In this document: one piece after another, positions 1 through 21,562 of the stretch
How the letters are laid out: each line of letters starts with the position of its first letter
Position numbering within the stretch: the stretch's first letter is position 1
IMG/VR virus record: IMGVR_UViG_3300005265_000012
Span: 1 to 46,012 of that record
Length of the DNA stretch: 46,012 bases
Strand: one strand, 5' to 3'
Source of the DNA: a virus
The notes under the pieces: generated by a model
Seen by the model: the letters and a program-made list of their open reading frames with translations, nothing else
What the model was told of the DNA's origin: nothing
Database searches by the model: none
Translations under genes and position numbers: made by a program

Positions 1-249
1 CGAGAAGAGAAAAGCTTCAAGAATCTCACACCCCAAACAAACTCCTGAAAAAACTCGGACTCTAGCTCTCGGTTTCTTCTTCTGCATCAAAACTTTCTCA
101 GAGGCCTTGAAATGAAGGTACAAGGATTGGGTTTTAGAAAGGGAAGGGCTTATAATCATCCAGTTTGGACCTTTGAGATAGAGCTTATCTCCAGACTCCC
201 AAATTCTATACCCTCCGTAGTAGAGATAGATGTTCTTTTTTACAGCCAT
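1..249 (-). CDS. Unknown protein, 3' end cut by window edge
   Basis: An open frame starts with ATG at 249 and stays open for 83 codons to base 1, so the C-terminus lies outside the window. The start is supported by GGAGG five bases upstream, placed inside the last codons of the ligase gene; the two genes overlap by ten bases. The protein begins MAVKKNIYLYYGGYRIWESG and is rich in Tyr, Lys and Ser, with two cysteines near residues 71 and 74. I do not recognise a family. The overlap and ribosome site suggest translational coupling to the ligase. It is the last visible gene of the operon. Confidence 0.6.
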   Translation of the reverse strand, partial: MAVKKNIYLYYGGYRIWESGDKLYLKGPNWMIISPSLSKTQSLYLHFKASEKVLMQKKKPRARVRVFSGVCLGCEILEAFLFS

Positions 250-1394
250 CCACTCCTCCAACGGACAAATTTGGCTTTGATCTTTCTCATGTCTATCACA
301 CAATCAGAAGCGTTCTTATCATGTCTGTATCTAATAAGGCTTGTGTGGTAAAGAAGGAGTTTCGGAGTCCACCCCATCGCTTTGACTTCAACCACAACGC
401 CAAGCATTTTGGGATTCAAAGAGCCGTCAGGGAGAGAGATTCTTCTCCTCACTACATCCGTTCCTGGGTTGACATGTCCTACAACAATTTCCCTGCCCTC
501 CTCGTCGTATGCAGAAATCTCCAAAGACCCTACAAGGCCGTCATATTTCTTCCCTGGCAAGGCTTTCTCTGAGCCTGTAATGAAGCAGTCATAGGTGTAG
601 TATCTTTTCATCTTCAGCATATGCCAAACTCTTCTGCCAGGCTCGTAGGGATGGTCTAAGTGGCGGAGCATTATGCCTTCTCCATCTCTAGCCACCACCT
701 GCTCGTAGAAAGCCTTCTTGTTATCTCGAACTATTGGAAGCAGGTGGACACCATGCTCACCCAAAACAGGAAACCTCTCCCAGATCTTCTGTAAGGCTTT
801 GTAGCGTCTCTCAAAGGGAGTGCGGTTCAAAAGCACATGTTTGAGTTTGATAAGGTCAAATATTCTCAAAGTTGGAGTTCCGTATTGGTCTTGAACTGCC
901 TTTGCTCGATCTGGTTTGGGGGAGACAATTGCTATCGTCATGAAGAGAGAGGATTCTATCTGCTTGTCCCCTGATTGAATAGACTCAGCTGCGTCAAACA
1001 CCAACTCCCCTACCATCACAGTGCCATCCAGCTCAGGGATGTAAAGGGATTTGATGTGAGGAAAGTTGTCAGTCCGCTCTATGAAGAGGCAAGTGACATC
1101 AGACCTTTTCCTGCCATCCAGTCTCGCCCCCCAAGGGCCTAGATGAAGCCTCATCATAACACCGTTCAGCTTCTCCATAGCCACCCACCTGTCACTGCTC
1201 AAGACCCTCTCCTGTTCCTCTTCCCCCAACTCATCGATCCTATGGGCAAGCATTACAGGAATTTGCTCTAAAGTGTTCTCGTCGGAATAGGCTCGTCCAA
1301 TGGCAGCCTGAAGATCAGCTGCTTTGAAAGAAGAGGGAGGAGGTTCCCCGTAGAGGTCTCTATACATCTCCCTCAGCTCCCTTACTGTTCTCAT
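240..1394 (-). CDS. ATP-dependent DNA ligase-like protein
   Basis: The 384-residue protein has the order of nucleotidyltransferase motifs expected for an ATP-dependent polynucleotide ligase. Motif I is EKLNG with candidate adenylated lysine K75, motif III is around VMVGELVF, motif IIIa is RIFDLIKL, motif IV is DGEGIMLRH and motif V is MLKMKRYYTYD, followed by a short OB-like tail. Motif I is atypical: most DNA ligases have KxDG, and here the Asp is Asn. Members of the family seal nicks by enzyme-AMP transfer, so a role in replication or repair is likely. The start has a GGGGAGG site. It lies with helicase, primase and DUF932 genes, which fits DNA metabolism. A second, larger ligase domain is encoded at 31664-35011. 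An RNA ligase role is possible because of the KxNG motif, but less likely. Confidence 0.82.
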   Translation of the reverse strand: MRTVRELREMYRDLYGEPPPSSFKAADLQAAIGRAYSDENTLEQIPVMLAHRIDELGEEEQERVLSSDRWVAMEKLNGVMMRLHLGPWGARLDGRKRSDVTCLFIERTDNFPHIKSLYIPELDGTVMVGELVFDAAESIQSGDKQIESSLFMTIAIVSPKPDRAKAVQDQYGTPTLRIFDLIKLKHVLLNRTPFERRYKALQKIWERFPVLGEHGVHLLPIVRDNKKAFYEQVVARDGEGIMLRHLDHPYEPGRRVWHMLKMKRYYTYDCFITGSEKALPGKKYDGLVGSLEISAYDEEGREIVVGHVNPGTDVVRRRISLPDGSLNPKMLGVVVEVKAMGWTPKLLLYHTSLIRYRHDKNASDCVIDMRKIKAKFVRWRSGWL

Positions 1395-1413
1395 TCTCTC
1401 ACCTCCCCTTTTC

Positions 1414-1479
1414 AGTTTCGCTTCTTAGACAGAAAACACTGGTAGGAGAAAAAAGATTCAAAGCTTGAAAAGCGAAACT
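1414..1479. repeat. 10-bp inverted repeat in the ligase leader
   Basis: AGTTTCGCTT at 1414-1423 is matched perfectly by its reverse complement AAGCGAAACT at 1470-1479, just upstream of the ligase ribosome site. Between the arms, on the transcribed strand, a short AT hairpin (TTCAA GCT TTGAA) is followed by a run of T. It could be a weak terminator/antiterminator, an RNA stability element or an operator. Only the repeat itself is seen; its function is inferred. Confidence 0.4.
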
Positions 1480-1485
1480 TCTTCC

Positions 1486-2460
1486 TCAACCATCATAAGC
1501 AGGTGCCTCCACATAGAGGCGCATCACGTTCCCAGCCTCTTCTTCTAGAGCCCTAGCAGCTGCCAAAGAAGTTAAGTCTTTAGCTTCGGAAGATATAATC
1601 TGAGCCAGATGGTATCTACTTATCTCTCCCTCAGCCTCTGCTTTCTCTAACCCCATCGCTATCAAGCGGGGAAGAGAAGCTCGGACCTTCCTTTCTGCCA
1701 GCTCCTCAAGGTAGGAGGAGACATGAACGGAAGTGTCCATCGACCAGCGAATCTGTCTTTCTCTTCTCTTTACTTCATTTTGATTCATAAGGACAGAAGG
1801 AGTGTTAATAACCACAGAATGAACCAGCTCTCGGGCCAGGTTGAGGAAGGAGACTTGAAAGAACGGAGAGCGACCAGTAGGAAGGCGTCGGGATTCCATC
1901 AACCCGTTTGCGCATACCTGAACGAAGAGGAGAGAGTCAACTCGAAAGTAACTAGCTCCAACCTCCGATGTTGTGAGGTCATAGCCAATGTAGACATTTT
2001 GAGGAAGCTTCAACTCCTTGTTGACAACCCTATAATGGAGAACAGGCTTGGTAATATCAGAGTCAGCCCCTTTTATCTCCCATCCAGAGGGGATTTGTTT
2101 TAAACATTCTTCTGTAGGAACATGAGTGTAGTCTATGCGAAGGGCTCCTACAACCTCAGGAATAGCGCCCTTCATTATACACAACCTAAGCTCTCTAGCA
2201 TGGTCAGGAGCCATGCCAATTGCATGGGCTAAAACCTTCCTTCTCAGCTCAGCGTGAAGCGTCTCATAGAAACCTCTAGGAATCTTGAAGAGTTTGAAAA
2301 GGTAGCGGGTAGGATATTCTCTAATAGGAAGCTCTTTGCCTTTGACATCTATAGTATTGTCTTCAAGATTCAAGTATCGTATGTCTGATGCTTGAAGATA
2401 AACCCATTGGAGCTGAGACCTCACCTCTTCCATTTCAGAAATAAGCAACGATTTACTCAT
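1486..2460 (-). CDS. DUF932-like phage protein
   Basis: This 324-residue protein starts at ATG with a clear AAAGGAGG site. The central stretch around residues 170-195 reads YDLTTSEVGASYFRVD then VQVCANGLM. This resembles the conserved core of DUF932 proteins, in which an (N)SETG-like segment is followed by a (V)CSNGL segment. DUF932 members are common in phages and mobile elements and have no settled biochemical role, although they are often found beside replication or recombination genes, as here. The C-terminal third is helical and charged. There is no signal peptide or membrane segment. The family assignment rests on two short motifs. Confidence 0.55.
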   Translation of the reverse strand: MSKSLLISEMEEVRSQLQWVYLQASDIRYLNLEDNTIDVKGKELPIREYPTRYLFKLFKIPRGFYETLHAELRRKVLAHAIGMAPDHARELRLCIMKGAIPEVVGALRIDYTHVPTEECLKQIPSGWEIKGADSDITKPVLHYRVVNKELKLPQNVYIGYDLTTSEVGASYFRVDSLLFVQVCANGLMESRRLPTGRSPFFQVSFLNLARELVHSVVINTPSVLMNQNEVKRRERQIRWSMDTSVHVSSYLEELAERKVRASLPRLIAMGLEKAEAEGEISRYHLAQIISSEAKDLTSLAAARALEEEAGNVMRLYVEAPAYDG

Positions 2461-2518
2461 AATTTGTTTCCTCCTTTTTCTTTTCCTCTTTTTGTGAACA
2501 AAAACGGAAAGATAAATT

Positions 2519-3208
2519 TCACAGCTTCAATTTTCTTTCCTTTGTTGAAAGTGTTTGTTCAGATTCTCCTGTCTCGTGCTCTCTCAGAAAAGAAGCTAAA
2601 GAGGCTGCCGTCTGCTCGACGAGAGGATAGAGGTCGACTTCAGGATTGTCTTTCTGCGTGCCCCAAGCCTCCTCAATCATGGAGGTAACGGAAGGTAGCC
2701 CCTCTTTCTCATAGAGACGAGCCAAGGCGTTGAAGAAAAGTTGTCTGTCTTTTAGTTCTGCATCCTTTATGCGGGATAGAAGAGCCTTAGCTTGTTGAGA
2801 GACTGTTCTTCTCCTACCATAGCGTCTCAAAAGGTAGGTGGCAGCAATTTCTCGGCTGCAGCCAGACTTCGCACATAGTAGGCGGACAGGCGTCCAACTC
2901 TCTCGGCAGACAAAGCAACATATTGAGTTTGATCTTCGGTAGTAGGCTGCGCTGGGGTGAGCGTCCATGTTGGCATGCCTCTCTGGAAAGGGGCAGCGAA
3001 TGGGTGTCACATCTTTCTTGACTTCAAAGTGAAGGATCTCATTCATTGGAATTTTGTTTGCTGCGGTTATTTTTCTTTTGAGTGAGTCATTTTCCCTTCT
3101 AGTCACCTCAGCTTTCTCCTCGACTTCATAGTGAAGGATATTATTCATTGGAATTTTGTTTGCCGTGGTTATTTTGCCTTCAAGCGAGTCATTTTCTCTT
3201 CTAGACAT
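2519..3208 (-). CDS. CHC2-type zinc-finger primase-like protein
   Basis: The 229-residue protein contains a DnaG-type zinc-binding segment: IRCPF, then HPSAAYY, then CCFVC (C-x2-C), followed by SREIAATYLLRRYG. This is the pattern of the primase CHC2 finger and its flanking helix. No TOPRIM catalytic domain is present, so it is either a stand-alone template-recognition subunit or a truncated primase whose catalytic part lies elsewhere. The N-terminus carries two near-identical 34-residue repeats just before the finger. I chose the ATG at 3208, directly after the helicase stop, because GGAGAAG lies six bases upstream; an in-frame ATG at 3229 has no ribosome site. The C-terminal half is helical and unassigned. 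Coupling to the helicase suggests a primase-helicase pair. Confidence 0.65.
   Translation of the reverse strand: MSRRENDSLEGKITTANKIPMNNILHYEVEEKAEVTRRENDSLKRKITAANKIPMNEILHFEVKKDVTPIRCPFPERHANMDAHPSAAYYRRSNSICCFVCRESWTPVRLLCAKSGCSREIAATYLLRRYGRRRTVSQQAKALLSRIKDAELKDRQLFFNALARLYEKEGLPSVTSMIEEAWGTQKDNPEVDLYPLVEQTAASLASFLREHETGESEQTLSTKERKLKL
3020..3202 (-). repeat. Tandem 102-bp repeat in primase N-terminus
   Basis: Bases 3122-3202 and 3020-3100 are two copies of a segment with a 102-base period, about 86% identical by eye. Each encodes RRENDSL...K-I-T-x-A-N-K-I-P-M-N-x-I-L-H-x-E-V. Differences are mostly third-position, so both copies are kept as protein. It is an in-frame duplication of the segment that precedes the CHC2 zinc finger. 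Confidence 0.85.
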
Positions 3209-3209
3209 C

Positions 3210-4448
3210 TCAATCTTCTCCAAACTCATCTATTTGTATGTCGCGAGAGGATGAGAAAGAAGACTTTGATTTGGTGTTGGTTACAACTCCAGTCTGTTGC
3301 ATGCGAAGAGTCTGTGGGTGAAGAGAAAGCTCTACAAATTTGGTAGGGTCATAGGGAAGTTCCCTTCGCTTGGAAACCCCCATGCGAGAGGTGAGATAGC
3401 CAGTTCGAAGAAGCCACATGACACCGTCTGGGGTGCGCTCAGACTCGTTGGTGTCAGCAAGGGCTCTCAAAGAGTAGTAGCCCGTTTCTTGAGCAGACCT
3501 GTATCCCTCTCGGTTGACTTGAGTCAGGCAAACGATAGAGGTGCGGGTGTTTTGTCCATATTTGAAAAGGGATTTTATAGCCTCTCCTATTTCATTGAAA
3601 AAGCGAGTGCTTCTGCTGTAGAGAAGACCCAAGTAGTCGATGAAGACCACAGAGATGTCAGAGTGCGCTCTAAGAAGAGAGAGGATCTCAGAAACCCCGT
3701 AGCCAGTAACCCGACGAACTTTGATGGAGGAGATGTCAGAGAGAAGGGATTTCAGATGGGATGTCTCGTCTGGAGAGAGCCTTCCAGTGAGGAGGCGCTC
3801 ATAGGAGAGAGTGGGAGACTTTTCAGCGGAGAGCATGCAGGCTAGCTTCCATTTGAGGCGGACTGGACTTGTTTCATTGCCGTCCCCTGGAAAGCCAGAG
3901 AGAAGCCACAACTCGCCCTCCAAGATTCCGCCTAGAGGCTCTAGTAGAGGAAAAGGAAGGAGGGAGAGATGAGAGCTGAGCGCTGCCGTCGGATCAATTT
4001 CCGATTCAGAAGCCGAAGGATCTAGAGAAGCTTCCATCTCAGAGAGAATCATGCGAGCTCCCTCAACACCTCCATAGTAGCGACCTCTACCGTCCCTGAA
4101 GCCTTCAGCAAGAGCTCTGATGGCGTCTTTCAACCCTCTCGCCAGCCTTCTTGCTTGATAGGATTGGATCAAAGATTCAACAGACCACGAGGTCTTTGAA
4201 AGTTGAGCGGCTCGGATGTAAGCTTCGACTATATCTCTTCGCTCCTGCTCAGAGAAGTCTCTCTCAACAAGAGCTCTCTTGAGAGAGTCTCGGTCAAGAG
4301 AAGTCCCGTTTTTCATGTAGTGAAATCTTGCTATAGAAAAGAGGTGAGAATAGGGGTAAGCAAAGACTTCAGGCCTCAAGCCTGAAACTTGAAGCCAACA
4401 GTCTGAGTCAGCTCGAAGGAGAGCCGACAAGATTTTAGTTTCTTCCAT
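3210..4448 (-). CDS. DnaB-like replicative helicase with degenerate Walker A
   Basis: The 412-residue protein has a DnaB-like N-terminal helical domain (EETKILSALL ... GLRPEVFAYPYSHLFSIARF) and a RecA-like C-terminal domain with Walker B VVFIDYLGLL, a DnaB-type CLTQVNREG segment, and ADTNESERTPDGVMWLLR matching the DnaB ESG...D.V..L.R region. The P-loop, at residues 185-194, reads GFPGDGNETS instead of GxPGxGKTS, so the catalytic lysine is missing. Removing three bases (ATG or TGA) around 3875-3877 would restore GDGKTS. Either this copy is a naturally altered ATPase, or there is an in-frame insertion or assembly error. It overlaps the small basic gene upstream and abuts the primase gene. The likely role is DNA unwinding at the phage fork, if it is active. 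Confidence 0.75.
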   Translation of the reverse strand: MEETKILSALLRADSDCWLQVSGLRPEVFAYPYSHLFSIARFHYMKNGTSLDRDSLKRALVERDFSEQERRDIVEAYIRAAQLSKTSWSVESLIQSYQARRLARGLKDAIRALAEGFRDGRGRYYGGVEGARMILSEMEASLDPSASESEIDPTAALSSHLSLLPFPLLEPLGGILEGELWLLSGFPGDGNETSPVRLKWKLACMLSAEKSPTLSYERLLTGRLSPDETSHLKSLLSDISSIKVRRVTGYGVSEILSLLRAHSDISVVFIDYLGLLYSRSTRFFNEIGEAIKSLFKYGQNTRTSIVCLTQVNREGYRSAQETGYYSLRALADTNESERTPDGVMWLLRTGYLTSRMGVSKRRELPYDPTKFVELSLHPQTLRMQQTGVVTNTKSKSSFSSSRDIQIDEFGED

Positions 4449-4632
4449 TTAAATTGAACCTTCTCCTCCTTTCTTTCTTTTTCATTTCCTCTTCATAGAT
4501 GTAAGCCTTGAGAGCCCCAATCTCTCTCTCCAACCATCCTGGTCTCCTGCCTGCATTCTTCTTGTGTTTGAAAGCGCAGAGGTTTCTATAGGCAACATAA
4601 GCTTCCTCCAAAGTCATCTTTCGGGTCTCCAC
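4435..4632 (-). CDS. Small basic protein of unknown function
   Basis: A 65-residue, lysine/arginine-rich protein starting at GTG with a GGAGG site seven bases upstream. Its stop overlaps the helicase start by 14 bases, which suggests translational coupling. It is almost entirely helical by composition, ending KKKERRRRFNLNGRN. I do not recognise a family. Its place directly before the helicase could suit a helicase-loader or DNA-binding role, but nothing in the sequence proves this. Confidence 0.55.
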   Translation of the reverse strand: METRKMTLEEAYVAYRNLCAFKHKKNAGRRPGWLEREIGALKAYIYEEEMKKKERRRRFNLNGRN

Positions 4633-4715
4633 TTTCTTTCCTCCTTATCTAAAAAAACAAAAGCGAAGCAGACGAGTTCACTGTCACTGTAATTTCAAAC
4701 CATTTTCAAAGAAGC

Positions 4716-5697: not shown

Positions 5698-8616
5698 TCA
5701 AGAGACGTTTGTTATATATTGACCATCAGACGCTCCCACTGTGAGCTCTGTCTCTTCACTGAAGAAATTTCCTTCAAGGAGCTTCACTTTGAGGATGAAA
5801 GAGCCAGCCTGGTTGACCGTGAATGTGCAGGAGTTTCCATTGTTTTGCCAAGCATTGCTAGCCACTTTGTAGTAGAGGTCACCAACGAATTGGGGTGGAA
5901 ACTGGCAGACGCAGTTGTTCTCTGCTAACATGCCTGCCCCTGCTCTGACTTTGCGCACCTTGGGAGCACATTTCACCTCAACCTGAGTTCCAGAACGAGT
6001 GGCAACCACTCGTCCTATGCGAGGGGGTTTGAAAGCTTTGAGTTGAGGATCCACCTGTATTAGCAAAGCTCCTTCTAACCATTCTGATCCTCCAGCAGAG
6101 TATGGAACGCATTTGAGGTAGAATGTTGAGGAGCGGTTGATTGTTATAAGCTGATCTTTAAGCTGAAATACATAAACTGTTGCCCCTGCTGTGTGAGATT
6201 GTCTTTCCGTTCTCCGATATCCTCGTATCACACCTTTCAACCTATAACTATCTTCCCCCTCTGGCTCGTAGGTTTGAAAGGCCATAATCTCATCATCTAT
6301 CAAAACAAATCTGTTTGGAACAAACAAATCAGTTCGACTCACATTGTCAAACTGAGTCCAATCTTTATATGGTTTGAACAGCAACCCCACCTCATCGTCT
6401 ATCTCATTAGTGTCTTCAGGATAATCCTGTTGCAAAGTCCCTGCAACAGCAAACCTAGTAACCTTCCCTAAATAGTGAAAGTCATAAGGCTGGGAGGATA
6501 TGTAAACAGAAAAGCCTAGCTCCGCTCCTGTTTGTTTCGACGCCAACAGTAATATGTTTACTGCTTCTGGTAGACCTTCTTCATAAGGCAGCTCGTATGC
6601 TCTTACATAAAGCAGGGGTTCTAATTTCAACTCCCCTCCAGGAAGCTCTGGCCTTGATGGTGCCTTGCCTGCCTCTGCTTCTTTGGTTTGCTCTGTTCCT
6701 GCAGTGATTGGTCCTAAAGCTTGTTGGCCGTGCTGGACAGCCTCTATTTCTATATAGTTTTCACTGGGGTCTGGGTCTACTATCTTAATTATCCTAAAAT
6801 CACAGTCTACCCCATAGTCAGGGTATTTCACCCTAACTATATCCCCTGGCATCAGCATAGAATATTCACGGCTCAGACGACCACTCACATAAGCTCTTGG
6901 GAAGCTGTCCTGTCGGACTATACGCCAGAGGCGAGCCCAAGCTATGTTCAAATCCAAATATGCTGTCAAGTCTATTGTCTTCTCTCGTTGAAGAGCACCT
7001 TGCGCAAGGATAGCAGGGTTTTTCATGGCTATTGTCCTGACGGTGAAATCTCTTTCTTTGTCAACAAAGTTGGCTCGATAGTCGTTTGGGATTTCCCCCC
7101 AAAAAGGCCGCTGCAGCGTGAACTCCTTGAAATCTTCCTGCTGAATTGTCACAGTTGCAGCGTCAGTGTCCTTCAACGGTCTTATCCCTACCTTTCCATC
7201 AGGAGATAGCGTTAGAATAGTGTTGACGAATCCTAGCACATAATTTAACCACTCTCTAGCTTCTTTTTGAGAAGAGAGGACTATATTTATACCCCAAATC
7301 TTATATCCTTCTGCCCACGGTACTTCTTGGAATTTTTTCAAACAGCAATAAAGATTATACTTACTTCCTCCGTTCGCTGAGTCTAGTCGAGTGAAAGCCG
7401 TCACACAGCCAGCATAAGAACAACTCCAAGAAGGCCACATCTGAGCTATGCCAGTTGATATCTTTACACCTCCTGCTCCCAAAAGACTTAGAAGCTGTTT
7501 GGGAAACCAACCTTCAGTGGGAGACCATTCTTTATGCCACAATCCCGCCTCGCCTCCTACCAAATCCGTCCATAAAATATGGACATGTCCTCTCTTATCC
7601 ACAAATACCTTTACATTAAAAGCGTTATATACATCTTCAGGAATCCAACCATGAGGTGCAGGACATCCAACTGAGTATAAACGCAAAACTGTTGAAACTC
7701 CCTCACCTCCTACAATATTTCCTACAACCACATAACCATTTGTTCCTGGATAAGCCGCTATGTCGTTCAATCTAACGCTCAAGCCGCTCGGAACGCAGTA
7801 ATGATTGTAAGGAATAGAAGAGTAACCCATCTCTAAGTCAGACTGAGTCCAACCTCCTTGGCGTTTGTCAGCTACAGCAAAAGGAAAACAAGCACCAGTA
7901 TTCCAAGCATAACTAAAAACGGGCTTGCCATCATCAGTGACAGCTGCAGCCACTTCCAAGACATAGTGTTGTTCTTCTATCCAAGTTAAAGCTTCATTCC
8001 ATTTATAATAACTTGCAATTTGCCAGTTCGACTGCAACCATTCCAACTGCCCTGACGCAACTACAGCACGATTAACAAACAAAGCTCCACTACTAAGACC
8101 AACACTACTGCAACTACCTTTAACACCCACCCAAAGATAGCCGCCCCTTCCTACAGCCACTACAGGTTCTGACAACCCTACAACATTAAACCTTTTACCA
8201 TCACTTGGTCTAACTATTGTTATGCTTACACCCGTCGTCGGCCCCCAAACTCCATCTGGGGTTCTAACAATAAAACCTACTTCATGTTTCGCCACGCTAA
8301 CATCTTTTAGCTCAAAAAATACAATCAGGTTGCCAAGGCTGTCCGTTACTAACCCAGGATTCCCAATTCCTCTTCTACCAGGTTCTTCTTCAGTCGGTTC
8401 GTAGCTAGCCAACTCCAACTTCAAAGGCCAAGTTTTACCTCTATCGCTACTCTCAGCATACCAAAGACAAGGATGTGCTCCTCCAGCTTTTCTCTTAAGG
8501 TATGCCAAACAAAAAGTCCCATCTTTAAGTCTTACCAGCGTCTTAGAATAACTACCAGCCGTATAAGCCATGATTTCTTCACTATCATCTACAAGGTAAA
8601 GCTCCTTCTCAGCCAT
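5698..8616 (-). CDS. Tail-tip (J-like) protein, C-terminal part, fused to sialidase-like propeller
   Basis: A 972-residue protein in two parts. Residues 1 to about 430 look like a six-bladed sialidase/BNR-type beta-propeller, with a clear Asp-box SSDRGKTW at 56-63 and repeated beta-strand/Gly patterns such as DKRGHVHILWT. From about residue 436 the sequence becomes a phage tail-tip protein (Phage-tail_3/GTA megatron type): EGYKIWGINIVLSSQKEARE, SPDGKVGIRPL, a hub-like segment MLMPGDIVRVKYPDYG, then VLIDDEIMAFQTY ... LKGVIRGYRRTERQSHTAG and a C-terminal fibronectin-like beta domain. The 5' half of the tail-tip protein is the separate gene just upstream, whose stop abuts this start (TAAATG). 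The propeller probably binds or cuts a surface glycan; its catalytic residues could not be confirmed. Confidence 0.8.
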   Translation of the reverse strand: MAEKELYLVDDSEEIMAYTAGSYSKTLVRLKDGTFCLAYLKRKAGGAHPCLWYAESSDRGKTWPLKLELASYEPTEEEPGRRGIGNPGLVTDSLGNLIVFFELKDVSVAKHEVGFIVRTPDGVWGPTTGVSITIVRPSDGKRFNVVGLSEPVVAVGRGGYLWVGVKGSCSSVGLSSGALFVNRAVVASGQLEWLQSNWQIASYYKWNEALTWIEEQHYVLEVAAAVTDDGKPVFSYAWNTGACFPFAVADKRQGGWTQSDLEMGYSSIPYNHYCVPSGLSVRLNDIAAYPGTNGYVVVGNIVGGEGVSTVLRLYSVGCPAPHGWIPEDVYNAFNVKVFVDKRGHVHILWTDLVGGEAGLWHKEWSPTEGWFPKQLLSLLGAGGVKISTGIAQMWPSWSCSYAGCVTAFTRLDSANGGSKYNLYCCLKKFQEVPWAEGYKIWGINIVLSSQKEAREWLNYVLGFVNTILTLSPDGKVGIRPLKDTDAATVTIQQEDFKEFTLQRPFWGEIPNDYRANFVDKERDFTVRTIAMKNPAILAQGALQREKTIDLTAYLDLNIAWARLWRIVRQDSFPRAYVSGRLSREYSMLMPGDIVRVKYPDYGVDCDFRIIKIVDPDPSENYIEIEAVQHGQQALGPITAGTEQTKEAEAGKAPSRPELPGGELKLEPLLYVRAYELPYEEGLPEAVNILLLASKQTGAELGFSVYISSQPYDFHYLGKVTRFAVAGTLQQDYPEDTNEIDDEVGLLFKPYKDWTQFDNVSRTDLFVPNRFVLIDDEIMAFQTYEPEGEDSYRLKGVIRGYRRTERQSHTAGATVYVFQLKDQLITINRSSTFYLKCVPYSAGGSEWLEGALLIQVDPQLKAFKPPRIGRVVATRSGTQVEVKCAPKVRKVRAGAGMLAENNCVCQFPPQFVGDLYYKVASNAWQNNGNSCTFTVNQAGSFILKVKLLEGNFFSEETELTVGASDGQYITNVS

Positions 8617-9489
8617 TTAGCAATCCTCCCCTTTAAAATAGGCTGCTGCTTGTATGAAGGAATCTAAATCTATCTCACTCTGGTTAAATCCAACCTCATT
8701 TACTAGTAAGTCGTAAATCACAGCTGCTGGGTTTGCTCCATATTGTAGGTCTGCGTAGGGAAGGTCGTCAGGTAAGATGCGATGCACAACAAAATGCAAG
8801 TTGGGCAAATAGGTAGAATTGTAAGCCACCAAAGCTCTTTTCCAGAAGAGGTGAGCCCAACCCTTCAGAGGAGTTGCATACTCGCCTGGCTCAGTCGGAT
8901 AGTTAGAGTTTGTTCCATCATTCCATATTTCGTTTGAAGCCCAAGCCGAAGCTTCTCCCCATTCCTCTAGCTCTGGGTCTGTGACATCCCATAGGTTCTT
9001 GCCTCCCTGCTGTCCTACAACTTCAGCCACTTTTTTCTCGTTCTTGTAGAGAAGCAATATCTCTATTTTTCCTTTTGCTAACACCTGCCATATGTCTAGA
9101 TAGTATCTATAGCCTACTACATAATCGCCCCCGCCTCCACCACCACCTTTGCCGCCTTCTGCCTCCTCAGTAACCTCTTCAGCCTCAAGATTTCCAAACC
9201 AAACAATATTTGCTGGAATCTTCACCGTCCCGTAAACTACAGGAACAGGTGTAGCCTCGTTGGTTTGCGTGATCTGGAAGTCACTGACAGAGGCTGGCTT
9301 CATAGCCTCTTCGTTTCCTCCATATCTGACTGGAAACATGTAGCTGCCAATGGCTGCTCCGACAGTGAACGCCAAGCCAGCTGCTAGCAAACTTCCAGAA
9401 ATGTAATAAGCAGCACCTCCTACAGCTACTCCTATTATTAGCGGAATCGCAGCGTAGCCACACTCATTTTTTGTATAGCCTAAAAACAT
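8617..9489 (-). CDS. Tail-tip (J-like) protein, N-terminal part
   Basis: A 290-residue protein. After two Gly/Ala-rich hydrophobic helices (residues 10-50) it reads NEATPVPVVYGTVKIPANIVW, then YRYYLDIWQVLAKGKIEILLLY and later NPAAVIYDLLVNEVGF ... DLDSFIQAAAYFKGEDC. This is the N-terminal third of J-like/Phage-tail_3 baseplate proteins, which normally continue in the same chain into a segment like the one found 430 residues inside the next gene. A stop codon and a new ribosome site (GGGGAGG) divide it. A polyglycine stretch (about residues 112-120) forms a loop. It assembles at the tail tip with the Fe-S hub and the NlpC peptidase, judging by family and neighbours. Confidence 0.75.
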   Translation of the reverse strand: MFLGYTKNECGYAAIPLIIGVAVGGAAYYISGSLLAAGLAFTVGAAIGSYMFPVRYGGNEEAMKPASVSDFQITQTNEATPVPVVYGTVKIPANIVWFGNLEAEEVTEEAEGGKGGGGGGGDYVVGYRYYLDIWQVLAKGKIEILLLYKNEKKVAEVVGQQGGKNLWDVTDPELEEWGEASAWASNEIWNDGTNSNYPTEPGEYATPLKGWAHLFWKRALVAYNSTYLPNLHFVVHRILPDDLPYADLQYGANPAAVIYDLLVNEVGFNQSEIDLDSFIQAAAYFKGEDC

Positions 9490-9958
9490 GTCTTAAGCGC
9501 CTCCTCCAAAATCGTATTGGTCTTATTATCACTCCTGTTCTATACAGGACAGTGATCTGCTTCTCATCACCTAGATAGATCCCCACATGATTGCTGACAT
9601 CCAATTTTGTTAGTGCATACACCAAAACATCCCCTCGGTAGAAATTGTCCAAATCAGACAGCTCCTTCGCCTCTACACCATCTTTCAGAAGCTTCCAGTG
9701 TTTCTGAAAATAGTTTAAAACTAGCTCCTTTTTCATGTGCAAAGCCCAATCTCTGGGATAGTATGAGTAGGAAAGTTCTTTCAACACGCCCAGCTCCAAC
9801 AAAGACGCTCCCAATAAGAGAGCACAGTCCACACCTCTTTTCTTCACATGACACATATGCTTGTAGGGAGTGCCCAGCCATGATAGTAGAATGCGTTCAT
9901 ATCTTTTCCACTTCTCATCGTCAGCAAAGTAGTAGTTGTCTTTTATTTCATCCCCCAT
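9464..9958 (-). CDS. NlpC/P60 family tail peptidase
   Basis: The 164-residue protein has the fold markers of NlpC/P60 cysteine peptidases: SWLGTPYKH, then RGVDCALLLG with candidate nucleophile C45, and SNHVGIYLGD with candidate His H124. In siphophages such as lambda (gpK) and in GTAs (g14) this enzyme sits between the hub and tail-tip genes and cuts peptidoglycan during tail assembly or DNA entry. Its start overlaps the gpL-like gene upstream by 16 bases, and its end overlaps the next gene by 26, so translation is probably coupled. Length and position fit the family. Confidence 0.85.
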   Translation of the reverse strand: MGDEIKDNYYFADDEKWKRYERILLSWLGTPYKHMCHVKKRGVDCALLLGASLLELGVLKELSYSYYPRDWALHMKKELVLNYFQKHWKLLKDGVEAKELSDLDNFYRGDVLVYALTKLDVSNHVGIYLGDEKQITVLYRTGVIIRPIRFWRRRLRHVFRLYKK

Positions 9959-11337
9959 AGGACAGGATTCCTGCTAGGAATGTAAGGACAACCAAGGAAA
10001 TTAACTAGATTGTCAAACTTCTCTTTACATGTTTTCGGGCTCTTATCACACCCAGGATAAGCGGTAACAGTCTGACCATCCACAGGCTCAGAAAACGGGC
10101 ACTGGATTATCACATAGTTTTCCTTTGACTCCATCACCAGTCGGGACTCTCCCAAGAATTCCACAAATCCTCCCGTAAACCAGCCCTCGGGTTTTGCTGC
10201 AAATGCTGATGAATATAATGTCGTGTTCGTCTCGTCTGTAGTAACTTGTGCAGTTACTGCATAGCTCGCCTTGTTCACCCCACATCCACCATCAAAGAGA
10301 TTGTGATTGCAATAGCCTTGATACAAATCTTTGGGAATCAACACCTTGGCTTTAGCTCCCAATGGTGAAAAGCTTAAATACAACATGTCCTCTTTCATTG
10401 TTGCTGCAGTTGAATTACCAACGAATATAGTCTGAGCCTGTCCTGTTTCAATGTCCAACCGCAGCAGCTTGATTCTTGTGTCCACAGTGAGTTTGTTCAA
10501 CATCAGACGCATAAACTCTTCACCACACCTAGCGCACACATCCAAACGAGTATCCGCAAAAATGTCCAAGCCTCGCTCTAAGGTCGAGCGAGATATGGGC
10601 AGCCTAGCGTAAACATTCCCATTCCGCTCTATATCTTTCCAATAAGAAGTAACCCGAAACACCTCCCCTAACGCTTCAAACTCGTAAAGTTCTGCAAACG
10701 GGTTTGCAATGCCGCTGTAATCCTCATATTCTTGCACTAACTCTCGGAAGACCACTTCAGCCTTCGCCACAGCAGGATCTTTTTGGTAGTCATAAGCTAA
10801 AGTGTCCTCTTCAAACCTGACCAACACGAACCTGCTAAAGCACAATAAATCCTCGTCATTTATCTGCCTATCGACTGGAGACTCTAAAGTCAACACCTCA
10901 AGGTCTCCCTCCAGACCAATTGAAGCCACTTTTCTAACTACATTATCGCCATTTTTAAAACGGAACCATATCCGTTCATATCCTTGAAACGCCTCTTTAA
11001 AGTAACAGCGTGTTATTTTCACAGTTGTTGAGCCCGAGCTAACAGGCCCCGCCAGAGTGAAGTCCTTCTTCCATATCGGAAGCCAAAAGCGATTCAACCT
11101 TCCACACATCTGCTCGAAGAACTCAACCAACTCCTCCTGCTCTTCTTCTACTAGGTAGTAGGTATATTTTAAGATTAAACCCACACCCTCCACCATTCTT
11201 TTAGCCCGAACTGCTGTTCCTGGGAATTTGAAGAAACGAGCCACCTTTATGTGAGACAATGTCAAATCCTCCAGCAAAGCTGGCTCTTTCACGAGCTTTG
11301 CTGATACATCTCCTAACCCATCATACGAGTCTGCCAT
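9943..11337 (-). CDS. gpL/DUF2163-like tail hub with Fe-S cysteines
   Basis: The 464-residue protein has four cysteines with the spacing of the [4Fe-4S] ligands of lambda gpL: CNHNLFDGGC (C343 and C352, nine apart) and CDKSPKTC (C430 and C437, seven apart). The segment after them, FDNLVNFLGCPYIPSRNPVL, is typical of DUF2163 hub proteins, which end near a GxPxIP segment. The N-terminal 200 residues, with FWLPIWKKDF, look like a distal-tail/hub fold. The protein probably forms the hub between tail tube and tip. An extra pair, C268 and C271, is of unknown role. Start ATG has a GAGGAAG site. Gene order (tape measure, unknown, this, peptidase, tip) matches lambda and GTAs. Confidence 0.8.
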   Translation of the reverse strand: MADSYDGLGDVSAKLVKEPALLEDLTLSHIKVARFFKFPGTAVRAKRMVEGVGLILKYTYYLVEEEQEELVEFFEQMCGRLNRFWLPIWKKDFTLAGPVSSGSTTVKITRCYFKEAFQGYERIWFRFKNGDNVVRKVASIGLEGDLEVLTLESPVDRQINDEDLLCFSRFVLVRFEEDTLAYDYQKDPAVAKAEVVFRELVQEYEDYSGIANPFAELYEFEALGEVFRVTSYWKDIERNGNVYARLPISRSTLERGLDIFADTRLDVCARCGEEFMRLMLNKLTVDTRIKLLRLDIETGQAQTIFVGNSTAATMKEDMLYLSFSPLGAKAKVLIPKDLYQGYCNHNLFDGGCGVNKASYAVTAQVTTDETNTTLYSSAFAAKPEGWFTGGFVEFLGESRLVMESKENYVIIQCPFSEPVDGQTVTAYPGCDKSPKTCKEKFDNLVNFLGCPYIPSRNPVLWGMK

Positions 11338-16397: not shown

Positions 16398-16994
16398 TTA
16401 GGATTCTGCTTCGAAGTAAACTCTTTCTCCTACTATCCTTTCATTTCCATGAGCTGAGCTGATGTAGCTATAAGCATCAAAGCCAAGAGCGATCTTGCCT
16501 GCATCATCAGGCCGTAGATTTTCAGTATATTCAGTCTTCGCAGAGACCTCTGGGAAATAGTGGACAACTTGAGTTCCATCTAGAAAGTCAGCAACACCAA
16601 GAAGAGCATATTTCTTCAGCTGAGTCCTTCCAAAAGGAGCTCTCGTGATGCCTGGCGTGCTGCACTCCTGCACATCCACCCCTAAAGCCTTGCTAACAAT
16701 TGCGTTAGACTTTCCATAGACAGAGATCGTCAGCTCGCCATCCACCCCAATGATTGCTTCGTATTGCAAGGCCTTCGGGAGGCCTAGCTTGAGTTGGTAT
16801 TTCTCCTTTCTGATAGTGATTGTAGGACTGTCCTCTACAACAGCCCCTAGATTGGTGAAGCCAGCTGGAGGAGTGTTGACATCAATCCTACCGCTACACG
16901 GATCCCATTCTTGAGGATAGTCGGCAATCAAGAGTTGCTCAATAGCTAGACTGACTTCTGCTTCAATGATTTCATTGTCATAGGTCTTGCCCAT
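16398..16994 (-). CDS. Major tail tube protein
   Basis: A 198-residue protein placed directly before the tail chaperone, where siphophages encode the tube subunit. The pattern FTNLGAVVEDSPTITIRKEK and VDGELTISVYGKS, with alternating beta strands and the small loop around KAL, fits the tail tube/Hcp-like fold, in which an early LG-x-V..E segment and strand pairs recur. Its start lies inside the last 17 bases of the large glycosyltransferase gene upstream, with GAGGTG eight bases before ATG. There is no added Ig-like domain. It should polymerise into the tail tube. Confidence 0.85.
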   Translation of the reverse strand: MGKTYDNEIIEAEVSLAIEQLLIADYPQEWDPCSGRIDVNTPPAGFTNLGAVVEDSPTITIRKEKYQLKLGLPKALQYEAIIGVDGELTISVYGKSNAIVSKALGVDVQECSTPGITRAPFGRTQLKKYALLGVADFLDGTQVVHYFPEVSAKTEYTENLRPDDAGKIALGFDAYSYISSAHGNERIVGERVYFEAES

Positions 16995-19740
16995 ATCCCA
17001 ACACCTCCTCTCTGTTTAGAGATTTTTCTAAGATATCACACTGCCTCTTCAAATAGTCTCGTAGCTCATCAACCGTCACAATCCAAAGCCCTTGCGGTTT
17101 CTCCTCTTCTCCTTCTAAGCTTATAGAAACACGCACTTTCACTGGTCTGGTCATTCTTCCTTCCGCCTCTAAAAGAAGTCTAGCCTCCGCCGCTCTAGCT
17201 AGACACTCTTGGTAGAGGTGGAAGAAGCTTTGAGCTGTAAGAGGATCCTCACGAGCTTTTTCTGAATTCTGTCTCCACAATTCAATTGCATCCAATAAAT
17301 ATTTCTTTCCCAAAGGCGTCAGCGCTCCTCTGTTCAGCCGTCTCTGCCATTTCTCAAGGCTTAATAAAGTTCTCATCATAAGATAGTTAGCAATTCTCCT
17401 TCTTGGGTTGCGCTTCAAATCTTTCTTCAGCAGAATCAAATTTCGTCCTAGTTTCATAGTCCTCTGAACCTCTGTCATATATCCATGATGAGCGATGACA
17501 ACATCCTTTACAAAACACACGGGAGTTATTGGTTTATTCAAAGATAAACCTACTTGCTCGTGGACGACTCCGTAAAAGCTATACTCAGGCCTGTTTTTAA
17601 AGAGGCGAACAGGAAGATCGCTTTTCGGCAAGCCCCACGCAGCGAAGTGGCGCTGTTCAATCGCATAGCCCTCAACAAGAGGAGAAGAGAGGTATTTAGG
17701 TAGGTTCTCAGAGCCGTGTAATTCTTCGTCCGCATCTATGTAAAGAATCCAGTCAGAGGTGGCCTTCACCTTTGCCTCGTTTCTCGCCCAAGCAAAGTTG
17801 AAAAGGCCATCGCCATCAGGATCTGAACTGATGTTAAAGACCTTGTCTGTGTATTGCTTACAAAGAGGGACAGTTCGATCAGTGCTGCCTGTGTCACATA
17901 TGATAAGCTCATCATAGATGGAGTTCAAAGAGTTTAGACAGCGAGGAAGATTTTGCTCTTCATTCTTCACAATCATAACAACAGCAAGTGAGCTTTTCGG
18001 TCTTGTCCTTGTCTTGTTAACATGAAAGTCTGGACAGCCAAAAGGGAAGAGACAAAGCGTAGGAGAGAGGTAGAAGGAGGTAACCCACATACCCCTGCCT
18101 TCACCTTTGTTCGTTCTCTGGTGAGTTATATAACGCATATGGAATTGATCTTGGTCTCTGAAAAGGGACTCCAACTCTAACTGCTCAAATTGACGGACTC
18201 CAAACCCCCAAGGACCTCTGGCTGTCACAATCACCATCTTGCCTCGAGGAAGTAGTAAAGACCGCCACCCATTCAGAGCCTCTTGATAGCTCTCAACAAT
18301 CTCCAGAGCGCAGTCTGCTATCAGGCAGTTGAATTTTTCTTTGGGATTGAGATGCCTGCCAGGCCAGTCTCCTTCATAGGAAGGGATTAGAGTGGTCACA
18401 TTCAAAGTCTTCTTTGAGGAGAGAGAAGAAGCCAGCAAATCAGCTCTCGGGCTGATGATGAGAATCCTTTCGCCAACAATTGACTTGGTAAGTTCTTTTA
18501 GTAGAAAAGTTTCGCCAGCAACTCTAGGGATTGATATCTTTTTGCGCCTCTTCTCTTTCTGCAAGAAGGATTTTGCAGAAAGCAAAATCTCACCATTATT
18601 AGCTATTTTTAATGCTCCTTCTATGTCATTGATGGAGAGGAGAGAGTCCACTATTCTCTTGTTGTTGGCTTTCCTCCTCTGATCAAAGAGATGTTGAATC
18701 CTCTCTAATCTTGAGTCTATTATTTTAGGCCAGTCATAAACTTCAGCCCTCTCCATCAGATCCTTCTGGAGGGCCTCGTATTTTGCAGGTGAGTTTAGCA
18801 AATCCTCAACAACAGCTATGAAGCGGTCTGCATAGTCCGCTCGGATGTGAGGAGTTCCTTTTATACGAAGCTCAGGAGGAAGGTATTCCTTCATTGCAAA
18901 GGCGTCAGAAGTAATGACAGGAGTGCCCGCCGCCATCGCCTCCACTGCGTTGATGCAAAAGACTTCAGGGTAGGAAGTGGGGTAGAGATAAAGTCTGGAA
19001 GCAGAAAGGGCTCGGTAGAAAGAGGGTTTAGAAAGAGAACCTAGGAGAGTCACCCCAGGGGTTCTCTCTGCCAGCCTCTTCATACGCAGGTGATAGGAGA
19101 GAATAGAAGGGGGAAGGCGGCCAGGCTCGATGTCATATCCAGCAATAAAAAGCCTAAGCCTAGGGTTTCTCCTCCACAGTCTAGGCCATATTTCAGTAAG
19201 AAGATAGCCAAGACCTCGTTCTGGTCTGGAAGCATAGATCAAAGAGTCTTCCTTTGGTCGTGTGTTAGATCTTATCTCAGAGATGGAGACGCCGTTTGGT
19301 GTGATCCATATCAGCTTTTCCAGCTCTGGTTGCACATGTAAATATTGTTTCTTGTGAAAGGAGGAAAGAAGCCAAATCTCATCAGCAGCCCAAACGGAAG
19401 AGCCTAGTTTAGGTTTTGTCTCCTCTGTGAGAATGTCGTGGCACACTAAAATTCTAAGCTTTGCTCTCTCCAAAAGAGGAAGAACATCCCAGTTTCTATA
19501 AACAAAGAAGACATCCCAATCACCACTTCTCAAAGGGCCTTCGCCTGCATGTAGAGGCTTATAAAGGACTCCGTTGAATTGAGAAGCCTTTCCACAGTCT
19601 GTGTAGACCGTGACATCATGACCTCGGTTCGCAAACTCCATAGCCGCATAGCAAAGAGAAGACTCAGAACCTCCCAAACCTTTTTCATACATGGTAGAAC
19701 CATCAAACGGAACAGAGTTCGTATAAAAACCTATTTTCAT
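16978..19740 (-). CDS. GT4 / methyltransferase-like / GT2 fusion protein
   Basis: A 920-residue protein with three parts. Residues 1-350 are a GT-B, GT4-type glycosyltransferase: GLGGSESSL, ITPNGVSI, SRPERGLGYLLTEIW, and the EVFCINAVEAMAAGTPVITS nucleotide-sugar motif. Residues about 420-560 look like a degraded class I methyltransferase (ERILIISPRADLLASSL, LIADCALEIVESYQEAL, LLPRGKMVIV). Residues 583-800 are a GT-A, GT2-type glycosyltransferase: LAVVMIVKNEEQNLPRCLNS, CDTGSTDRT, NFAWARNEA, YIDADEE with the D669-x-D671 metal site. The C-terminus is helical. It probably adds two sugars in sequence to one acceptor. The gene lies directly before the tail tube gene and overlaps it, so the tube or another virion protein is a plausible target. 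Confidence 0.85.
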   Translation of the reverse strand: MKIGFYTNSVPFDGSTMYEKGLGGSESSLCYAAMEFANRGHDVTVYTDCGKASQFNGVLYKPLHAGEGPLRSGDWDVFFVYRNWDVLPLLERAKLRILVCHDILTEETKPKLGSSVWAADEIWLLSSFHKKQYLHVQPELEKLIWITPNGVSISEIRSNTRPKEDSLIYASRPERGLGYLLTEIWPRLWRRNPRLRLFIAGYDIEPGRLPPSILSYHLRMKRLAERTPGVTLLGSLSKPSFYRALSASRLYLYPTSYPEVFCINAVEAMAAGTPVITSDAFAMKEYLPPELRIKGTPHIRADYADRFIAVVEDLLNSPAKYEALQKDLMERAEVYDWPKIIDSRLERIQHLFDQRRKANNKRIVDSLLSINDIEGALKIANNGEILLSAKSFLQKEKRRKKISIPRVAGETFLLKELTKSIVGERILIISPRADLLASSLSSKKTLNVTTLIPSYEGDWPGRHLNPKEKFNCLIADCALEIVESYQEALNGWRSLLLPRGKMVIVTARGPWGFGVRQFEQLELESLFRDQDQFHMRYITHQRTNKGEGRGMWVTSFYLSPTLCLFPFGCPDFHVNKTRTRPKSSLAVVMIVKNEEQNLPRCLNSLNSIYDELIICDTGSTDRTVPLCKQYTDKVFNISSDPDGDGLFNFAWARNEAKVKATSDWILYIDADEELHGSENLPKYLSSPLVEGYAIEQRHFAAWGLPKSDLPVRLFKNRPEYSFYGVVHEQVGLSLNKPITPVCFVKDVVIAHHGYMTEVQRTMKLGRNLILLKKDLKRNPRRRIANYLMMRTLLSLEKWQRRLNRGALTPLGKKYLLDAIELWRQNSEKAREDPLTAQSFFHLYQECLARAAEARLLLEAEGRMTRPVKVRVSISLEGEEEKPQGLWIVTVDELRDYLKRQCDILEKSLNREEVLGYGQDL

Positions 19741-21158
19741 AGCTTCGGTTTCCTCCTTCGTATAAGCCAGTCTATTATAGTATTTACAGTGCAGTTCTCA
19801 GAACCTATAGAAAGGGGAAGATACCAAGAGCAATGGGGAGGAGCCCAGCTGGTTTGAAAGCCAGCAGGAAATGGTTCTTTACTGTGAGTTACACCCTCCT
19901 CAGCCCAGAGCATTACTGTGTCTTTTCTGTAGTGAACAGCCAACATACCTATGCCAGAAGAGACAGCTACAACCAAAGAGCAGGATTTGAGGAGAGAGAG
20001 AAGCTGAGCTGAAGTAGTTTGGCCTATCATGGAGTCAGCTTGAAGGCCCCTGTGATAGGCTTGAAGATAGAAGTCCATGTCATCTCTCCCATGATAAGGA
20101 AGTTTCGTGCCAACCACAACGGGTCTCGAACCATAGAGAAGAGACAATTGGCGAGAGAGATTGACCCAATCTTCTATCGCCCAACTACCATCGTTCCATA
20201 TCTCGTTTGTATACCAACAACTCATGTAGAAGAGGACTTTAGGGGGAGGGCTGACAGGTAGCGGAGAAACAGGAAAAGAGGGATAAGACCAATTCGTCTC
20301 ATATTGAGGGAGAATGTTCTCCAACCTCTCCCCTCTTTCAAGAGGATGGTTGAAGAAAAGCAGGAAGTCTATGCCATCCCTGTTGTATTCCACTGAAGCC
20401 TGCACATAAGGATGGGAACGCCATGTTCTATATTCATAGGAGTCTACAAAAGGGACAGAAGCAACCAGAGCTCCAGCCCTTCTTGGAGGATGGTCGTTTA
20501 TGATCAGGTGAAGCTTGCACGGTCTTCTGCTGTTCTTCAGAGATTGAAGTTTGGTCAGAATCCAGTGGACATCGCCCAAGCCTGCAGGGACGCCCACAGA
20601 GACAATCTCTTCCTGAGTCGGGTCGGGTGTCGCCATAATAGTCTTGCCGTCAGAGAGAGGAGCGACAGTGATAGTTTTGTAGCCAGAGTCAGAGAGAAGA
20701 TTGATAATTTGCGTTGAAGTGAAAGTGCGAAGGAGCAAGTCCCCTCCCCTCCTTCCTCGGACTTCTATGAATAGACACCCAGACCGCTTGAGGAGTTTTC
20801 TCACCCTGAGAAGGTAGGCTTTGGGATCTAAAACTCGGTCGAGAAGAGCTCCCATATAAATGACGCCAAAGGAGTCGTTAGGGATGAAGTGGTTTGACAG
20901 CAAGTCTCCAAAAAAGACCCTCCGCTTCAAAGACTCAGGGACTGCATTATAGTCCAATTCTGTGCCTTTGGAGCCAGGGATTTGTTCAAGGAGATATCCA
21001 CAGCCACAGCCTATATGAAGGACAGATGGAAGAGGGTTCATATCTTTAATGCGACGGACTACCCATGCGTCTCCAAGAGTCCACACTCGTTGGTGGAAGA
21101 GGCCGTTTGTGTAGTGGGAGATTAGCTCATTAGAATCTATCATCTCTTCTTTCTCCAT
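19737..21158 (-). CDS. Methyltransferase / GT9-like glycosyltransferase fusion
   Basis: A 473-residue protein. Residues 40-170 are a class I SAM methyltransferase: VLHIGCGCGYLLEQI (motif I), GTELDY, FGVIYMGALLDRV, LKRSGCLFIEV. From about 190 it is a GT-B glycosyltransferase resembling the heptosyltransferase (GT9) family: GLGDVHWILTKL, then KVLFYMSCWYTNEIWNDGSW, and the C-terminal acceptor-domain pattern IGQTTSAQLLSLLKSCSLVV with VSSGIGMLAVHYRKDTVMLW. The GxGDxHW start is shared with the protein at 24425-25426, so the two GT9 halves are paralogues. The last four bases overlap the next glycosyltransferase gene, so the pair is coupled. The likely role is transfer and methylation of a sugar; the acceptor is unknown. 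Confidence 0.8.
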   Translation of the reverse strand: MEKEEMIDSNELISHYTNGLFHQRVWTLGDAWVVRRIKDMNPLPSVLHIGCGCGYLLEQIPGSKGTELDYNAVPESLKRRVFFGDLLSNHFIPNDSFGVIYMGALLDRVLDPKAYLLRVRKLLKRSGCLFIEVRGRRGGDLLLRTFTSTQIINLLSDSGYKTITVAPLSDGKTIMATPDPTQEEIVSVGVPAGLGDVHWILTKLQSLKNSRRPCKLHLIINDHPPRRAGALVASVPFVDSYEYRTWRSHPYVQASVEYNRDGIDFLLFFNHPLERGERLENILPQYETNWSYPSFPVSPLPVSPPPKVLFYMSCWYTNEIWNDGSWAIEDWVNLSRQLSLLYGSRPVVVGTKLPYHGRDDMDFYLQAYHRGLQADSMIGQTTSAQLLSLLKSCSLVVAVSSGIGMLAVHYRKDTVMLWAEEGVTHSKEPFPAGFQTSWAPPHCSWYLPLSIGSENCTVNTIIDWLIRRRKPKL

Positions 21159-21562
21159 TTTTCTCGCAGCAAGTTTTCATACTCTCTATGCGAGAGCATG
21201 TAGTTGAAAACTCTAGTGATAAACTTCCGACCTACACCTCCCTCCCTAGTCATCGGCTGAGCCGCAGAGACAGGGCCTAAGTTGTATTCGCCCTCATGCA
21301 TCTTCAACGCATAGGGAAGGTCTCCAGTCTTCACTCCCCCAAAGATTTTGGTTGTTTCCCCCTTCAGAGGGATAGGCCGAATGGAGCGGCGGAGGGCTCC
21401 AGTGAGAATGGGAGCGTTGAGCTTGCTCCGCCACGCTGCCTTCCGACTCAGCTCAGTCATCGCCTCTTCCAAATCGTTCCTGGTGAGAGACAAGAGGCGA
21501 GCAGTTCTTTTGAGAGCTCTTTCTAAGCCGTGTGCTTTCAAAGAGATTTGGACCCTCGCCAT
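21140..21562 (-). CDS. HK97 gp10-like tail completion / minor tail protein
   Basis: About 140 residues. The segment RKAAWRSKLNAPILTGALRR and the following YALKMHEGEY match the HK97-gp10-like family, in which an APx(D)TGxLRxSI stretch is followed by a Y...hE core. This family completes the head-tail neck next to the tail terminator. It sits after the tail terminator gene with a one-base overlap. Its end overlaps the methyltransferase/GT9 gene by 19 bases, so the sugar enzymes appear spliced in at this exact boundary. ATG at 21562 is preferred to the GTG one codon upstream. Confidence 0.8.
   Translation of the reverse strand: MARVQISLKAHGLERALKRTARLLSLTRNDLEEAMTELSRKAAWRSKLNAPILTGALRRSIRPIPLKGETTKIFGGVKTGDLPYALKMHEGEYNLGPVSAAQPMTREGGVGRKFITRVFNYMLSHREYENLLREKWRKKR

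Follow-up and report, generated by a model that had tools for sequence, protein, structure and literature searches.

A J-like tail hub encoded in two genes around an acquired, probably propeller-type segment in a viral genome record

Tail hubs of the J type can carry large domains related to glycans. In the megatron proteins of the gene transfer agent (GTA) RcGTA (Rcc01698) and of R4C, a mannanase-like peripheral domain lies between the adhesin-like and the central domains (PMC7296036, PMC10276861). Here we describe a gene pair on the minus strand of a 46,012-nucleotide viral sequence (IMG/VR record IMGVR_UViG_3300005265_000012, the whole of which we call the window) that encodes a J-like hub in two genes, g1 and g2, around an acquired segment of 440 residues. 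Like the megatrons, it joins a J-type hub to a large, putatively glycan-related domain at the corresponding stretch of the protein; unlike it, the megatrons are single chains, with an insert of another fold about 50 residues further upstream. In the most likely reading, to which we assign a probability of roughly 0.6, the locus encodes a J hub of two chains, one of which has acquired an Asp-box-type propeller that binds glycans without catalysis.

Other described systems share single traits with this locus. The 'evolved' Tal and Dit proteins of siphophages also bear an extra carbohydrate-related module in a hub-domain loop, but their decorations are carbohydrate-binding modules (CBMs) set into loops of the hub and the distal tail, and the available part of that report describes neither a split chain nor a propeller (PMC7291167). 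Set against the evolved Tal proteins, the hub described here shows the loop insertion, has no recognised CBM, and its glycan binding is putative. In lambda gpL/gpJ and RcGTA gp13/gp15 the hub domains are likewise distributed over two co-assembling polypeptides (PMC10721106); there, however, the split is at the level of HDI and the HDII insertion and not around an adhesion domain. Similarly, phi11 Gp45 and other propeller-bearing receptor-binding proteins present a beta-propeller, presumed to bind glycans, on a trimeric tail adhesin (PMC4901313), but Gp45 is a separate receptor-binding protein with five blades outside the J hub. No description of a J protein split around an exchangeable propeller was found in the open-access literature, seen mostly as titles and the openings of abstracts. 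The locus by itself is probably a variant of the 'evolved Tal' hubs; the recurrent pattern of split and swap to which it leads is the more interesting result.

The interrupted hub

The N-terminal, J/GTA-gp15-like part of the hub is encoded by g1 (8617-9489, 290 residues), which ends with DSFIQAAAYFKGEDC and whose terminal helix pair reads NPAAVIYDLL...SFIQAAAYFKGEDC. The adjoining g2 (5698-8616, 972 residues) begins with the acquired segment (g2 1-440, 7297-8616), behind which the hub resumes with WGINIVLSS... (g2 441-972, 5701-7296). A first-pass annotation of this DNA had already placed the end of the J-like chain in g1 and its resumption in g2 beyond about 430 extra residues; our count is 440. 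In PHROG 1101, a tail protein profile of 1405 positions, g1 covers positions 24-265 (E 5.9e-31) and g2 residues 442-845 cover positions 268-661 (E 3.4e-27). These stretches are consecutive, so the chain is unbroken in that family. Two Pfam models exceed their cut-offs in the resumed hub, Phage-tail_3 at g2 468-612 and Rcc01698_C at g2 723-814. The GTA megatron model NF048004 scored 49.0 and 39.2 bits, under its curated cut-off of 800 bits, which places the protein outside that particular family. By profile and by fold, the parts of g1 and g2 that flank the segment belong to a J/GTA-gp15-like hub.

Relatives were collected by scanning IMG/VR with an alignment of the upstream tail gene (the best 80 of 413 relatives were used), and further comparison loci came from an IMG/VR scan with the C-terminal hub part (35), a scan of GTDB genomes (2) and named phages; these loci carry L numbers below. 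Profiles of both J halves were then applied to all J matches. A single frame crosses the junction in 83 of 101 distinct J-matching contigs or phages, and in all 83 of these spanning contigs (which form 60 clusters at 90% and 38 at 50% identity) the halves lie 0-9 residues apart. The other 18, among which are cut contigs and weaker profile matches, comprise seven with the N side only (L014, L033, L046, L056, L061, L068, L083), six in which the C profile matches from position 55-59 only, in the same frame (L005, L078-L080, L085, L086), three with an insert upstream of the junction (L072, L074, L075) and two split elsewhere (L077, L115); R4C (L090) was set aside from this survey. The window's own split or insert is absent from all 101. 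When 15 homologues are aligned with the pair, none of them places a residue against g2 1-430. Closest are L010, L041 and L020, with 36-37% identity in the C-terminal part, and L010 reads ...AANYYASKN-WGLNIVLSR... where the window reads ...AAAYFKGEDC, 440 residues, and WGINIVLSS.... Single-protein scans of viral contigs with g1, the hub part of g2 and the segment confirmed no close relatives.

These comparisons bear out the earlier expectation that the two segments are continuous in usual homologues. They also bear on the two observations that the first-pass annotation had named as contradicting a foreign insertion: no relative was found that is split at this junction but lacks the propeller, and no homologue carries the propeller here. 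The proposal that a foreign domain interrupts a J-like hub encoded as two chains is thereby favoured, as far as sequence can tell. They matter as well for a different order of events, in which J first underwent a neutral fission and a propeller, serving elsewhere, was fused later to the second half. Propeller-free splits of J do exist at another point of the protein, in YuA, phiH2, Vibrio BA3 and similar phages. At the window's junction, however, none of the 83 spanning contigs represents a split-only relative and the segment sits exactly between both halves, which makes this order of events very improbable. Next to the hub genes, one gene at 9943-11337 (minus strand) matches PHROG 1082 and then PHROG 778, two tail proteins that phiH2, BA3 and similar phages encode separately. 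It is a gene fusion, the opposite of the adjoining J split.

To locate the insertion in the fold, the readthrough protein was modelled with AlphaFold using 36 homologues. The predicted local distance difference test (pLDDT) of the hub part is mostly 80-95, and its VIA matches include J of JBD30 (Z 24.9), Chi (Z 24.0), the GTA megatron (Z 22.8, root-mean-square deviation 2.9 over 335 residues), the R4C megatron (Z 20.8) and lambda J (Z 18.9). The break falls between helix 212-224 of the model (g1 275-287) and strand 673-675 (g2 445-447), in flanking blocks with a pLDDT of about 85-93. In the model, the insertion site thus lies within a hub domain, in a short loop that links a helix to a strand, and the earlier idea of an insertion at a domain boundary has to be given up. 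With the break inside one domain, the two chains would need to complete a single fold jointly. The profile similarity between the R4C megatron and g1 ends at g1 236, corresponding to R4C 208; in the domain list of the R4C paper the adhesin-like domain extends to 211, and from 212 the mannanase-like peripheral domain follows (PMC10276861). A related hub therefore already offers an example of a glycan-related domain in this stretch.

At the break itself, the sequence TAAATG (8614-8619) joins the stop codon of g1 (TAA, 8617-8619) directly to the start codon of g2 (ATG, 8614-8616) in the same frame, and the predicted N-terminus of g2 is (M)AEKELYL. A Shine-Dalgarno sequence, GGAGG (8625-8629), lies 8 nucleotides ahead of the g2 start within the coding sequence of g1. 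Its duplex energy of -10.1 kcal/mol ranks eighth among the 38 gene starts of the window. An alternative genetic code was ruled out, since TAA, TAG and TGA each terminate genes. The arrangement of stop, ribosome site and start described in the first-pass annotation can be upheld, with a strong and correctly spaced GGAGG.

The shared frame invites another explanation, namely that the TAA is read through, or arose by an error of sequencing or assembly, and that a single chain of about 1263 residues forms the hub and loops the propeller out. Unbroken chains with inserts at another hub loop are found in L200 (495 residues) and L176 (199 residues), as this explanation would have it. Against it, a ribosome site of consensus strength stands at the correct spacing, an arrangement that GGAGG achieves at no more than 4 of the window's 261 internal in-frame ATGs, and TAA is the stop codon of 13 of the 38 genes. 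In the split-hub lineage described below, moreover, restarts use all three frames and independent translation is usual. We consider a single chain quite unlikely. Independent initiation of g2 is well supported by these sequence signals, and the hub of the window would accordingly exist as two chains, a state that we infer from the DNA.

Nature and origin of the acquired segment

The segment differs from its surroundings in codon usage. Its GC content at third codon positions (GC3) is 0.323, compared with 0.416 in g1 and 0.422 in the rest of g2. Given its amino acids, this corresponds to z = -7.07 relative to the genome's own codon usage, where the next most extreme value among 37 other genes is -2.91, and none of 2565 coding windows of equal length has a GC3 as low. 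The acquired segment has foreign codon usage.

Its sequence points to an Asp-box propeller. The strict Asp-box pattern S-x-D-x-G-x-T-W is satisfied once in the segment, by SSDRGKTW (g2 56-63, 8428-8451), and arises in 4 of 20,000 shuffles. The top weak matches of the segment are Pfam BNR_4 (E 0.13, below cut-off) and BNR/Asp-box proteins in the PDB (E 0.18); the Pfam scans recognised no CBM in it. Among 395 Bacteroidota genomes, seven match at E<=0.01, the best with 7.7e-5 per genome, and five of the seven matches cover about query residues 11-25 to 101-102. All three of the matched proteins that were scanned with Pfam are BNR_2 proteins. In hhalign, the segment aligned to six matched proteins over residues 20-104 with a probability of 92.6; the best of 20 shuffles reached 1.2, and a hub control scored 0.1. 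In 395 genomes of Thermodesulfobacteriota, 21 gave weak scattered matches at E<=0.1, which are not used as evidence. On this basis we accept, from sequence, an Asp-box-type beta-propeller origin for the roughly 85 matched residues (g2 20-104, 8305-8559). That the whole segment is a propeller, with the same fold continuing beyond residue 104, is probable.

Several results weigh against this interpretation or against the preferred reading of the locus as a whole. The segment stays below the cut-off of every Pfam, PHROG and NCBIfam model, and the best Bacteroidota E, 7.7e-5, amounts to about 0.03 once the choice among 395 genomes is allowed for. Inspection by eye suggested seven G...W units at spacings of 50-72 residues, which the repeat tests did not back: off-diagonal alignment for internal repeats was equally good in 79 of 100 shuffles, leave-one-out blade profiles gave shuffle-like scores with a poor alignment of the blades, and a gapless motif search, run with no shuffle control, did not support seven blades. 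In the readthrough model the pLDDT of the segment is mostly 23-56. A search for change points in GC3 within g1 and g2 did not single out the segment; its optimum was the GC3-rich C-terminal stretch, with a log-likelihood ratio of 8.9 that was reached among 60 permutations, so the claim of foreign usage depends on the comparison with the genome. Moreover, tblastn found no relative of the segment in phages or plasmids, and none was found among 43 related virus records in a search that had no positive control. The common frame of stop and start, through which readthrough would yield a single chain, belongs here as well. A single-sequence AlphaFold model of the segment had a pLDDT of 33.7, and the fold searches list no propeller, the segment model being too poor to show one. 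The first-pass annotation had assigned a propeller to the entire insert: for residues 20-104 the motif and the homology bear it out, and beyond them the repeat tests and AlphaFold lend it no support.

Glycan cutting had also been suggested for this domain. A broader alternative is that the propeller is an enzyme, whether a sialidase, some other glycosidase or a polysaccharide lyase, and cleaves glycans of the capsule or the surface. Several glycosidase families typically have Asp-box propellers (PMC2716378), and the partners of the segment are BNR_2 proteins, both of which favour an enzyme.

The catalytic residues of sialidases include the Arg of the RIP motif and an acid-base Asp. The segment has no R[ILVM]P motif, either at the homologous position or anywhere in g2 1-440, no Asp in the acid-base region, and one strict Asp-box only. 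With both the motif and the acid-base Asp missing, a sialidase is unlikely, and so is membership in GH33 as judged from the sequence; glycan cutting by a sialidase mechanism is not supported. The check covered the sialidase residues. Overall we regard an enzymatic role as unlikely, and a non-catalytic glycan-binding propeller as the better account of the segment.

Split hubs and probably exchangeable inserts in another J lineage

Two of the comparison loci, L070 and L115, carry other propellers at a hub beta-hairpin equivalent to about g2 518-522 (7051-7065), a turn that is vacant in the window and that we call site C. It is the insertion point in a split-hub lineage that includes L070, L115 and L153. 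The insert of L115 is an RCC1 propeller (Pfam WD40_RLD, 1.7e-49) and that of L070 is kelch-like (Kelch_6, 0.0023, below cut-off). In both cases the propeller is directly followed by a stop, and the rest of the hub is carried by a further chain. Three further scans were seeded with this lineage, and the sample is therefore biased towards it. Both sides of site C are present in 54 distinct contigs, 48 of them split and six not (L157, L158, L176, L200, L205, L220), with 16 more contigs showing one side only. The layout is that a variable insert ends one chain and a conserved chain follows. The inserts span 62-637 residues, with a median of 356 (57 complete inserts of at least 60 residues). In a Pfam scan (E<=0.01) of 46 insert representatives, one per 80% cluster, five are RCC1-like, two match Kelch_6 and two match Sortilin-Vps10; BNR_2, CBM96, DUF285 and others occur once each, and most have no match. 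No homology was detected between the window's segment and the Asp-box insert of L143.

Restarts lie within 60 nucleotides of the stop in 35 of 49 scorable contigs, distributed over the three frames as 14, 7 and 14, and in 21 of these 35 the restart is preceded by a ribosome site at or below -5 kcal/mol (the start having been picked by that energy). The remaining 14 have gaps of 85-3244 nucleotides between stop and restart. Near restarts in all three frames indicate ordinary separate genes and not frameshifting. The window, with its break at a different loop, is a case independent of this lineage.

Within the lineage, near-identical hubs carry different inserts. L164 and L211 are 97.1% identical in the N part (136 residues) and 96.2% in the C part, and their inserts share 36% over 25 residues (E 0.34). 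Similarly, L174 and L201 have flanks of 94.9% and 98.6% identity and inserts of 27% over 236 residues (E 0.003), and in L185 and L186 the flanks are 91.7% and 90.1% identical and the inserts match with E 0.16. By sequence, all three pairs thus combine near-identical flanks (>=90%) with inserts that appear unrelated.

Some contigs hold several insert-bearing chains. L153 (1737-9380) has three tandem J N-chains of 740, 670 and 668 residues before a single C-chain, with frameworks 57-62% identical and inserts of which one is RCC1-like and two are Asp-box by pattern. L154 and L155 (3419-9395) each have two tandem N-chains before one C-chain; the N-chains are identical between the contigs, and within the pair the framework is 78% identical and the inserts 33% over 126 residues. 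In L147 (2685-9392) and L148 (6578-10702) J is in three pieces and the middle, insert-bearing piece occurs twice. The two inserts of L147 are one that has no Pfam match and one Asp-box propeller, and in L148 one copy of the middle piece stands after the C-chain. L160 shows an N-chain with an RCC1-like pattern and the start of another, cut by the end of the contig. Arrays seen in one contig may be assembly artefacts. Taken together, the data suggest that a hub split around an exchangeable adhesion domain recurs among phages. More tentatively, and at slightly less than even odds, we propose a recurrent hub of two and sometimes three parts with cassettes exchanged between phages, in which alternative copies sharing one partner chain would give a single genome several specificities. 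The window would then be its independently evolved mirror image, broken at another loop and bearing the propeller on the C-chain.

A few observations accompany these loci. L077 (9102-11283) has a propeller-like insert, recognised by eye and with no Pfam match, at a further loop upstream of an NPAxxIYDLL-like stretch, and its chain break falls within a second insert that looks jelly-roll-like by eye; a frameshift error may account for this break. In L115, a frame of 115 residues (4296-4640) with CKCG...CPVC separates the first J piece from the second and is possibly a mobile or accessory gene. Unbroken inserts of about 60-200 residues occur in several other J loops (L047, L054, L055, L058, L072, L074, L075, L084, L116). 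J loops tolerate many insertions.

A possible mechanism and its implications

On the reading that we prefer, a foreign gene segment coding for an Asp-box-type propeller would have been acquired at the helix-strand loop of a hub domain. The trimeric J-type hub would since be encoded as two chains, and the stop, ribosome site and start directly ahead of the propeller would place it at the N-terminus of the second chain (g2). The first chain (g1) and the hub part of g2 would co-fold into one J hub. As J hubs are presumably trimers at the tail end with inserted domains on the outside, the propeller would lie outside the hub and serve as a lateral adhesin, most likely a binder of surface glycans that lacks sialidase catalysis, comparable to the peripheral glycan-related domain of the GTA and roseophage megatrons. 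Cutting the chain at the insert would let the adhesion domain end freely. It would also allow one partner chain to be swapped, or several to be kept, with the other remaining constant. In the window, g1 would be the constant chain and g2 the exchangeable one, and in the other lineage the N-chain would be exchangeable. No array or swap was seen for the window's own architecture. Trimers mixed from alternative chains are a speculation.

Phage host range is usually attributed to swaps of fibre tips, and the central hub protein also gates DNA release in GTAs and related phages. Here the swapped unit lies inside the central hub itself, which is divided around it into separate chains. Frameworks that are 92-97% identical and carry unrelated inserts, together with tandem N-chains that share a C-chain, make multi-specificity from one phage genome a testable idea. 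In addition, the sequence between the halves of a split J is a place to find unannotated adhesion domains.

Elsewhere in the window, a minus-strand block of glycosyltransferase and methyltransferase genes (16978-26935) lies between the tail and head genes and may modify glycans of the virion or the host surface. At 26960-29155, also on the minus strand, a PAPS reductase is matched in two stretches with LAGLIDADG_3 in the same frame, a probable intein, and a single minus-strand frame of 1115 residues (31664-35011) combines an ATP-dependent DNA ligase domain with a methyltransferase domain of the MetW/Methyltransf_11 type.

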